From an uncultured Lachnospiraceae bacterium (GTDB lineage Bacteria > Bacillota > Clostridia > Lachnospirales > Lachnospiraceae), in NCBI GenBank assembly GCA_947063675.1, contig CAMSTM010000017.1, forward strand, positions 1 to 36,556: a stretch of 36,556 bases of DNA, in the 5' to 3' direction. Shown here one piece after another: positions 1,297 to 4,520 of this stretch. A program made the translations under genes and the position numbers. Position 1 is the first letter of the stretch; every line of letters starts with the position of its first letter. The notes beneath the pieces are model-generated. The model worked only from the letters and a program-made list of their open reading frames with translations. It made no database searches and was not told where the DNA came from.

Positions 1297-2601
1297 TTGA
1301 ACTACTTAGATGAAGCAAATCATGGCAAGGCTGCCGGATATAAAAAATTTTTATATGTCATGCTTGTTTTCGGCATAACTGCAGTGATGATTTCTTTCTA
1401 TTATTTTATGTGGCTCAGTGTTCCGTCCACCATCATGATAAAGGCGGGGGTGGAGCAGGAATTGGATTTTAAAGTACCGGCCACCGGTGAACTATATCGG
1501 GAAGCAGTGGAGGTGAGCGGCCCCGCTGTCGCAGCCCCGGAAGCGCAAGGAAGCCTTTACATTGACTTAGGGAGGCCGGTTACAGTAAAAGCAAACCAGG
1601 TCGAGCAATATAAGCTTCAGTTAAAGTTGTTCGGCGTTATTCCCCTAAAGGAAGTAGATGTAGAGGTCATTCAGGATTTACAGCTGAAGCCGGCGGGTAT
1701 CCCAATCGGAATTTACGTAAAGACAGAAGGGGTGCTTGTAGTGGGAATCGGAGAATTTGAGGGAGAGGACGGACAAAAATTTACCCCGGGAAAGTATGTA
1801 TTCCAGGTGGGAGACTATATATTGGAAATTAACGATGAGGAAATCAATGAAAAAAAGGAGCTAATAGAAAGAGTCAGCCACAGCGAAGGGCAGGAAATGG
1901 TATTTAAAGTAAAACGCGGAGACGCCCTGATAGAAGTGAAAACCAGACCGGAGATGAATCAGAATGGAGAGTACAAATTAGGCGTCTGGGTCAGGGATAA
2001 TGCCCAGGGGGTGGGCACCATGACCTATATTGACGAGCATGGATGCTTTGGCGCGTTAGGACATGGCATAAACGATGTGGATACCAGCACATTGATGAGC
2101 CTGTCCAAAGGAACTCTTTATCACACGGAAATTATAGGAATCACAAGAGGCGCCAACGGCTCGCCGGGAGAACTGACGGGTTTTATTGAGTATGACGATA
2201 AAAATATTATGGGAGAAATCACAGCCAACACGCCCAGAGGCATTTTTGGAATCTGCACGCCGGAAACTGAAACCAATGCGGATAACGATTACTATCCCCT
2301 TGGACTGAAACAGGAAATCCAAAAAGGCCCGGCACAGATTATATGCTCACTGGGAGATGAAACACGGATATACAATATTGAAATCACGGATATAAATCTT
2401 GAAAACGACAATATCAACAGAGGAATCGTCCTGAAAATTACAGACCCCGAGCTCCTTGCGGCGACAGGCGGAATCGTTCAGGGAATGAGCGGCAGCCCCA
2501 TCATCCAAAACGGCAAACTAATCGGCGCAGTAACCCACGTTCTGGTTCAGGACCCCACCAGAGGATACGGGATATTTATTGAAAACATGCTCGTGCATTG
2601 A
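1297..2601 (+). CDS. spoIVB: SpoIVB peptidase (S55 family), sporulation signalling protease
   Basis: SpoIVB is a serine protease made in the forespore that crosses to the intermembrane space and triggers pro-sigma-K processing. This 434-residue protein has one N-terminal membrane helix (about residues 19-41), a PDZ domain (about 140-215) and the S55 catalytic domain. Visible catalytic residues are H256 in GALGHGIND, D383 in KITDPELL and S398 in GMSGSP. All three sit exactly 20 residues later than the Bacillus H236/D363/S378 triad, so the enzyme should be active. The start is TTG, preceded by AAAGGATG. The usual recN and spo0A neighbours are absent, so this may be a relocated or second copy. 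Confidence 0.93.
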   Translation: MNYLDEANHGKAAGYKKFLYVMLVFGITAVMISFYYFMWLSVPSTIMIKAGVEQELDFKVPATGELYREAVEVSGPAVAAPEAQGSLYIDLGRPVTVKANQVEQYKLQLKLFGVIPLKEVDVEVIQDLQLKPAGIPIGIYVKTEGVLVVGIGEFEGEDGQKFTPGKYVFQVGDYILEINDEEINEKKELIERVSHSEGQEMVFKVKRGDALIEVKTRPEMNQNGEYKLGVWVRDNAQGVGTMTYIDEHGCFGALGHGINDVDTSTLMSLSKGTLYHTEIIGITRGANGSPGELTGFIEYDDKNIMGEITANTPRGIFGICTPETETNADNDYYPLGLKQEIQKGPAQIICSLGDETRIYNIEITDINLENDNINRGIVLKITDPELLAATGGIVQGMSGSPIIQNGKLIGAVTHVLVQDPTRGYGIFIENMLVH

Positions 2602-2611
2602 GTCCGGGCAG

Positions 2612-2672
2612 ACGCAGAGCCAGAGGGAAATTTATCAAGCTTGCTTGAATAAATTTCCCTCTGGCTCTGCGT
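2612..2672. repeat. Near-perfect 29-bp palindrome (long hairpin)
   Basis: The left arm (2612-2640) and right arm (2643-2672) are complementary over 29 positions with one bulged A and a 2-nt centre. The outer part is ACGCAGAGCCAGAGGG and its complement. It starts 11 bases after the spoIVB stop and could terminate transcription from either side. It has no T tract and is far longer than a normal terminator, so it looks like part of a repeat element. Confidence 0.9.
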
Positions 2673-2675
2673 ATA

Positions 2676-2757
2676 TCCGGCGAAAGCCGGACATGAGCGA
2701 AACGAAGTGAAGCGAATGCTGCCTGCAGAGGGGAAGCGAGCGGAACGAAGAGAAGCG
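2676..2757. repeat. GNRA-tetraloop hairpin plus two 23-nt direct repeats
   Basis: A 6-bp hairpin TCCGGC-GAAA-GCCGGA (2676-2691) is followed by two copies of a 23-nt unit, GAGCGAAACGAAGTGAAGCG-AAT (from 2694) and GAGCGGAACGAAGAGAAGCG-AAT (from 2738), with two mismatches between them. Together with the adjacent palindrome this makes a structured non-coding element of about 145 bp. It ends where homology of the minus-strand GH172 gene begins. It may be a miniature mobile or REP-like element. Confidence 0.6.
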
Positions 2758-3251
2758 AATTCAAAGGCATGGTAAATGACATGCCCCCACCCTCCTTCAT
2801 TTTTGGTGCGGTCAAAGCCCTTTAGGCAGATGCTGCTGGTAATCCGGCAGCTTTTTTGGTAAGGCATGGGAACAAAGCTTCTGACCACCCGGATTGGACC
2901 TCTGCCGTTATCGTAAGGCCCGATATACCGTGAAGCCAGGGGTTCCACAAAGGGGTATTTTTCTCCGAACTGAGAGTGGCGGATTGTAAAACGGGGTGTT
3001 TTTTCCCCGTCAAAATAAAAGGAAAAGGCAGGTTCCTCGCAGCTGGGATAGCGGTGCTGGACAAAATTATAAATGCATCCCGGTCCCAGATGCTCAAAAA
3101 GAACCCATTCCCCGTTTTCGTCCTGATAGAGGTTCCAGTCCCAGTCGGCATTGCCTCCGGTTTTGTCAATGCTGCCTTCATAATGGGCCCGGCAATGGGC
3201 CTTGGGGACAGGGAGGGCTTTGGGGTTTAATAAAGTTTCATAAACATTCAT
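2757..3251 (-). pseudogene. GH172/DUF2961 glycoside hydrolase, 3'-truncated
   Basis: Reading leftward from ATG at 3251 (RBS GGAG upstream), the first 165 or so residues match the N-terminal part of DUF2961 (now GH172) proteins: FEHLGPGCIYNFVQHR, the FDGE strand, VEPLASRYIGP and RSFVPMPY. Homology stops after GGWGHVIYHAF. The open frame then runs on through the low-complexity repeat element and palindrome and antisense to spoIVB, to a stop at 2547. GH172 proteins are normally about 350 residues or longer, so the C-terminal half of the jelly-roll fold is lost. Promoter and operator are still present upstream. I consider it a recently broken gene. Confidence 0.8.
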
Positions 3252-3516: not shown

Positions 3517-4506
3517 ATGAAATATGTAAAACTGGGCAATTCGCAGCTTAAGGTTTCCCGCGTCTGCATGGGATGTATGGGATTTGGGGATGCCGGAAGC
3601 GGGCAGCATTCCTGGACTCTTGACGAGGAAAGTTCACGGGAGATTATAAAGCAGGGGCTTAACGCCGGTATCAATTTTTATGACACAGCCATCGGCTATC
3701 AGGGAGGAACCAGCGAGCAGTATGTAGGACGCGCCCTGCGGGATTTCGCAAAGCGGGAGGATGTGGTGGTGGCGACAAAGTTTCCGCCCCGGACGAAAGA
3801 AGAAATTGAAAAAGGCGTGACCGGACAACAGCATGTCGCCCGGATGCTGGATAAAAGCCTGTCAAACCTTGGAATGGACTATGTGGATTTGTATATCTGC
3901 CATATGTGGGATTATAATACGCCGGTATATGAGATTATGGACGGATTAAATCAGGCGGTGAAGGCGGGAAAAGTCCGTTATATCGGCATTTCCAACTGTT
4001 ATGCCTACCAGCTTGCCAAAGCAAACGCCGTGGCGGAAAAAGAGGGGTTTGCAAAATTTATTTCCGTACAGGGGCATTATAATCTGATTTTCCGGGAGGA
4101 GGAGCGGGAAATGGCAAGGCTCTGCAAGGAGGATAATATCGCCATGACTCCTTACAGCGCGCTGGCGGGCGGACGGCTTGCAAAGCTGCCCGGAGAGACT
4201 TCCAAACGTCTGCAGGAGGATGCGTATGCCAAATCGAAATATGACGCAACCGCCAGGCAGGACGGTATGATTATTGAGCGTGTGGCGCAGCTTGCCGAAA
4301 AGCACGGCGTGACCATGACGGAAATTTCACTTGCATGGTTGCTCACAAAGGTGACGTCTCCCGTGGTGGGCGCAACAAAAAAACGGCACATTGACGGAGC
4401 GGCAGGTGCGGTCGATATTGTTTTGGACAGGGAGGAGATTGCTTATCTGGAGGAGTTATATGTTCCCCATAATCTGGTGGGGGTTATGTCGCAGAACGGA
4501 GCGTGA
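3517..4506 (+). CDS. Aldo/keto reductase
   Basis: This is a cytoplasmic NADPH-dependent oxidoreductase of the aldo/keto reductase superfamily, acting on small carbonyl compounds; the substrate cannot be read from sequence. The 329-residue length fits a full TIM barrel. The catalytic tetrad is visible as D56 and Y61 (NFYDTAIGYQ), K88 (VATKFPP) and H129 (YICHMWD). The cofactor-binding end is present (SPVVGATKKRHI). The start ATG has GAGGAGGGCTACA upstream. It has its own promoter, a divergent GH172 remnant upstream, and a compact terminator overlapping its stop codon. It appears to be a single-gene unit. Confidence 0.9.
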   Translation: MKYVKLGNSQLKVSRVCMGCMGFGDAGSGQHSWTLDEESSREIIKQGLNAGINFYDTAIGYQGGTSEQYVGRALRDFAKREDVVVATKFPPRTKEEIEKGVTGQQHVARMLDKSLSNLGMDYVDLYICHMWDYNTPVYEIMDGLNQAVKAGKVRYIGISNCYAYQLAKANAVAEKEGFAKFISVQGHYNLIFREEEREMARLCKEDNIAMTPYSALAGGRLAKLPGETSKRLQEDAYAKSKYDATARQDGMIIERVAQLAEKHGVTMTEISLAWLLTKVTSPVVGATKKRHIDGAAGAVDIVLDREEIAYLEELYVPHNLVGVMSQNGA

Positions 4507-4520
4507 AAACGCTATTTTTT
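4500..4520 (+). terminator. Compact terminator shared by convergent genes
   Basis: AGCGT-GAAA-ACGCT followed by ATTTTTT forms a small GNRA-capped stem. It includes the stop codon of the aldo/keto reductase (4504-4506) and touches the minus-strand stop of the XRE regulator (4512-4514). Confidence 0.75.

Follow-up and report, generated by a model that had tools for sequence, protein, structure and literature searches.

A four-stem RNA-like element 3' of spoIVB, probably related to Clostridiales-1 RNA, beside a GH172-type gene remnant in an uncultured Lachnospiraceae bacterium

Overview

A four-stem RNA-like element, with a fold common to its relatives, lies at 2604-2726 directly behind spoIVB in the window (the whole analysed stretch of 36,556 nucleotides from an uncultured Lachnospiraceae bacterium, contig CAMSTM010000017.1). 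With a probability of about 0.7, the locus is read as an RNA element of the spoIVB 3' region that is related to Clostridiales-1 RNA (RF01699), next to a separate remnant of an acquired GH172-type gene into which the element was not inserted. The initial annotation had described a GH172 gene cut off at its 3' end by one structured element of about 145 bp; the truncation and the structured element are both real, but the element is the unit at 2604-2726 and not a single block starting at GH172.

Structure of the element

The features of the locus are collected in Table 1. The element starts at most 4 nt past the spoIVB stop codon, and its RNA folding energy (z = -8.4) was equalled by none of 200 shuffles. 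The palindrome, the GNRA hairpin and the two 23-nt direct repeats of the initial annotation were all found in place, with palindrome arms of 32 nt instead of 29 bp (2604-2635/2649-2680, 91% complementary), the hairpin CCGGC-GAAA-GCCGG at 2677-2690 and the repeats at 2695-2717 and 2738-2760 (91% identical). These two repeats are the GA-rich P4 hairpin module and a degenerate second copy of it, and they do not delimit a mobile unit. The second copy was recovered as the second match of model R1 (20.8 bits, E 0.0017, 85 kb searched), and second or tandem units comparable to it occur at L077, L078, L082 and L103. Four tandem P3-P4 units with a spacing of 61 bp were seen at L082.

Table 1. Coordinates of the features at the spoIVB-aldo/keto reductase locus of the window.
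Feature	Position	Strand	Remarks
spoIVB (SpoIVB peptidase S55 with PDZ)	1297..2601	+	Pfam PF05580, E 1.7e-84; stop codon 2599-2601
Chimeric tail of open frame	2547..2759	-	Runs antisense across the element and the end of spoIVB
Four-stem structured element	2604..2726	+	Covariation in 21/46 pairs; diverged relative of Clostridiales-1 RNA (RF01699)
P1 5' strand CGGGCAG	2605..2611	+	Partner CTGCCTG 2719-2725; compensatory changes among relatives
P2 long hairpin	2612..2672	+	Arms evolve fast, AAGCTTGCTT apex conserved; both-side changes in 17/24 modelled pairs
P3 GNRA hairpin TCCGGC-GAAA-GCCGGA	2676..2691	+	Loop GAAA or GCAA across spoIVB copies
P4 CAUGAGCGAAACGAAGUGAAGCGAAUG, symmetric GA internal loops	2692..2718	+	Contains the first 23-nt repeat
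P1 3' strand CTGCCTG	2719..2725	+	Partner of P1 5' strand
Degenerate second P4-like hairpin	2722..2761	+	Contains the second 23-nt repeat (2738-2760); model R1 match
GH172-type gene fragment	2760..3251	-	About 165 N-terminal codons of about 640; DUF2961 missing; probable pseudogene
Aldo/keto reductase	3517..4506	+	PF00248, E 3.6e-68; borders the variable interval on the right; synteny with G007 and G020

Covariation was estimated from the seven complete spoIVB-linked copies with 46 modelled pairs. In the common P1-P2-P3-P4 fold, 96.8% of the cells were paired, against 82.3% in shuffled and 36-44% in slid controls, and changes on both sides (compensatory) were recorded in 21 of the 46 pairs. 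When five measures were taken jointly, no shuffle out of 500 was as good as the real seven-copy alignment. The P2 arms diverge strongly in sequence between species and keep their complementarity. P4 follows the consensus CAU-GA-GC(NN)-GNA-NC-GAA-GN-GNA-(NN)GC-GA-AUG, with an inner stem of 2 or 4 bp; its 4-bp form (n = 14 copies) has double changes in 7 of 14 P3/P4 pairs, and for the longer form 94.9% of the P3/P4 cells are paired, with 22 double-change cells.

Two other assignments were rejected. A guide or antisense role of the P2 arms was discarded, their sole other match in the genome being 19 nt long (E 0.33), and the other Rfam families gave only chance hairpin matches in the window, mostly to eukaryotic microRNA families. 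The copies with the 23-nt pattern in genome G256 were excluded as a differently shaped repeat; around 1501-1523 in L067, L071 and L073 of that genome, a near-identical GAGCGAAACGAAGTGGAGCGA stretch lies inside another dispersed repeat.

Occurrence 3' of spoIVB in relatives

spoIVB was found in all 38 congeneric genomes. The complete element directly follows its stop codon in three congeners (G010, G012 and G020), a copy interrupted by an N-run inside P2 follows it in a fourth (G004), and a spoIVB-linked element of a diverged subtype is present in a fifth (G018). It also stands 3' of spoIVB in three other genera, complete in two (G398 and G133) and as P3-P4 units in the third (G272). In the closest relative at spoIVB (G007, 98% amino acid identity) the element is retained no further than the 3' arm of P2; only its first bases remain in G003. 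The element is missing behind spoIVB in most congeners and is thus not essential. Since the congeners that carry it at the spoIVB 3' end are without GH172, the gene being absent from all 37 other congeneric genomes, the element is assigned to the spoIVB 3' region, where it exists independently of GH172.

Transcription would place the element in the 3' untranslated end of the spoIVB mRNA, where it may fold into a compact terminal structure and either shield the message or end it. A classical intrinsic terminator was found after the element at none of 8 element loci, as compared with several among the loci without the element (few loci in all), so a role in termination is at most possible.

Relationship with Clostridiales-1 RNA

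Clostridiales-1 RNA was described as a probable RNA of unexplained function that is probably not cis-regulatory (RF01699; Weinberg et al. 2010, PMC2864571), and no functional paper on it after 2010 was found in the literature searched. The window copy did not match the RF01699 model, either at the gathering cut-off (48 bits) or at E<=10, and is therefore called a diverged relative and not a member. Two bridging copies were reached by this model: L087 over the whole model (E 3.2e-7, under the gathering score) and the spoIVB copy of G018 (E 2e-4). For the opposite direction, model R3 was built from the spoIVB-linked copies only, with E-values that are rough owing to a short calibration. It retrieved the groEL- and rpsI-linked copies L070 and L066 (82 and 73 bits, respectively) and, within the genus, the canonical RF01699 copies L148 (the best, E 1.5e-5), L153, L147 and L104 (E 0.0035). 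L104 is a canonical Clostridiales-1 RNA of the same genome as the window (G000:C7:15217-15375, 98.9 bits, 3' of rpmB) and its only RF01699 match above the cut-off. groEL, rpsI and rpmB were identified from their translated ends, not by database search. Through these bridging copies, in both search directions, the model searches show the spoIVB-type element to be kin of RF01699.

The anatomy of the window copy can be read alongside. The RF01699-type junction (a P1-closed multistem with a long P2 and a GCUUGC-type apex) is present, as are the conserved UGAG...GCGAAU hairpin and the symmetric GA internal loops; the position of P5 (3' of P4) holds just the degenerate second P4-like hairpin.

Dispersal of related copies

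Copies that share their ends, which the initial annotation had proposed to look for, occur among relatives of the element across Lachnospiraceae, scattered over unrelated sites. Five canonical copies in G037 are 87-96% identical over about 200-228 nt, with near-common ends and unrelated flanks; four copies in G044 are 81-98% identical over about 170 nt; several copies in G394 align over about 160 nt. The window's own genome has no close second copy; its one distant relative is the canonical Clostridiales-1 RNA L104. Inspection of the five G037 copies by eye revealed no target duplication. No exact match to the element was found in viral contigs and none in plasmids, and the phage search gave one weak 28-nt match to the element. 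Three tandem Clostridiales-1 RNAs with a spacing of about 133 bp were observed at G016:C34:142677-143076 (L152).

Near-identical copies that end alike in unrelated places, tandem arrays and the absence of the element from the spoIVB site of most congeners are what a selfish dispersed DNA repeat of the REP/MITE kind would leave, the spoIVB copies then being old insertions with no RNA role. Such a repeat would hardly account for the strong covariation, which includes short internal helices, for the retained GA loops or for the GNRA/GNNA loops, and 29 of the 35 window-type copies lie 3' of a same-strand gene; we regard it as unlikely, though as the strongest of the alternatives. The latter count, like that for the canonical RF01699 copies (11 of 22, no clear bias), rests on crude gene calls, in which short genes (rpmB, for example) are missed.

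The GH172 fragment

The fragment shares 80-85% identity with the N-terminal part of L007, L008 (Blautia parvula) and L009 (Faecalicatena orotica), of which L008 and L009 are full-length proteins of about 640 residues (643 cited for the intact protein). DUF2961 (PF11175) occupies about residues 249-481 of the intact relatives; no Pfam match to it was found in the window fragment, whose homology covers a region of about 165 residues N-terminal to that domain. The abrupt stop of homology, placed at 2757 and within DUF2961 by the initial annotation, was located at the codon GAA (2760-2762) adjoining the second P4-like hairpin, and the region concerned precedes a domain that is itself absent. As had been claimed, the minus-strand frame stays open from 3251 to 2547 (234 aa), through the element, and so has a chimeric tail. 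The remainder of the gene was found nowhere in the bacterium's own assembly (95% complete). The fragment is most readily explained as the remnant of a horizontally acquired gene that is decaying as a pseudogene, which by itself is ordinary.

A surviving promoter had also been claimed. Consensus-like -35 and -10 boxes (10/12) lie at 3334-3307 of the minus strand; chance alone would give 1.5 promoter-like sites in the region, so the site is at best a weak candidate promoter. A plus-strand terminator-like hairpin followed by six T lies at 2832-2861, inside the GH172 remnant and antisense to it; it could end readthrough from spoIVB, and such sites are expected to occur by chance.

Junction and variable interval

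The interval between spoIVB and the aldo/keto reductase gene measures about 0.9 kb in the window, against 4.3 kb in G007 and 3.7 kb in G020, and its contents differ; that of G007 includes a Schlafen/AlbA-type gene, an amidohydrolase gene and a 67-bp fragment of the spoIVB 3' end. The last (L107:2446-2512) duplicates the 3' coding end at 85% identity and lies about 0.9 kb downstream of the genuine gene, which suggests that recombination or integration has taken place here before. Identity to G007 is about 93% on the spoIVB side and 94.8% in the aldo/keto reductase gene, and then 99.5%. At 4507-4512, about 1 kb with a DUF3990 gene that follows the aldo/keto reductase in G007 is absent from the window, and the next 1.1 kb past this gap is 99.5% identical. 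At the contig start, the window has an incomplete mannitol dehydrogenase gene (1-1072), whose stretch 1-48 shows no alignment with the G007 locus.

Copies of the element are often situated close to contig ends, and the G004 copy has an N-run inside P2, as might be seen if a misassembly at the palindrome had joined a GH172 fragment to the spoIVB end. The match of both flanks to G007 argues against this, as the insert of about 770 bp would need two independent false joins, and such a chimera is considered very improbable.

The initial annotation saw the element as the agent, inserted into GH172 or mediating a recent deletion. GH172 homology does stop exactly at the second P4-like hairpin, breakpoints also lie within the element in G007 and within the remnant in G003, and relatives of the element are dispersed and multicopy. 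On the other side, the same spoIVB site is occupied in congeners without GH172, the start of the element is set by the spoIVB stop codon and not by GH172, this genome has no second close copy, and neither the far side of the element nor any other part of the assembly holds the missing GH172 sequence. GH172 is touched only by the degenerate second P4-like hairpin, not by the intact four-stem unit. No evidence was found that the element moved into the gene or cut it, and this explanation is judged improbable.

Palindromes often act as break or recombination points. Since breakpoints inside the element occur in G007 and G003 too, it is plausible that a deletion or recombination event ended in the element here, and the 3' end of GH172 was possibly lost against the element in this way.

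Discussion

In the reading we prefer, that of a spoIVB 3' RNA element beside an unrelated GH172 remnant, the element would descend from a copy of a dispersed element that reached this site long ago. GH172 would have come in by horizontal transfer and have lost its catalytic three quarters, the remnant persisting in a variable interval; the element may have served as a break or recombination point without inserting into the gene. Clostridiales-1 RNA has diverged relatives that the Rfam model does not reach, and dispersed copies share their ends. A variant that different genera have in the same position behind a sporulation gene offers a concrete locus for the role of Clostridiales-1 RNA. More tentatively, and with less than even confidence, the Clostridiales-1 RNAs and the spoIVB-type variants might form one large superfamily of dispersed structured Lachnospiraceae elements, with P2 rewritten wholesale yet complementary and some copies having become fixed to form the 3' ends of housekeeping and sporulation messages (spoIVB, rpmB, rpsI and groEL).

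Three known systems can be compared with the locus. The GH172/DUF2961 family includes difructose dianhydride I synthase/hydrolase (PMC8605356) and D-arabinan-degrading enzymes (PMC10115798); the N-terminal 165 residues of the fragment are 80-85% identical to full-length relatives that bear DUF2961, whereas the fragment lacks this entire domain. With the REP/BIME and MITE-type palindromic repeats of bacteria, the relatives of the element share several near-identical copies, common ends and tandem arrangement, while the element differs in its four-stem junction and conserved internal loops and in that target duplication was not evident by eye at the five G037 copies. Nothing relevant on dispersed repeats in Lachnospiraceae was found in the literature searched. 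From Clostridiales-1 RNA the window copy differs by an extra P3 GNRA hairpin, a shorter P4, no clear P5 and no score on the Rfam model; the two share the closing stem P1, a long P2 with a GCTTGC-type apex, a hairpin of the form UGAG-stem-GAA-stem-loop-stem-GGA-stem-GCGAAU with GA internal loops, and their occurrence in gut Clostridiales.
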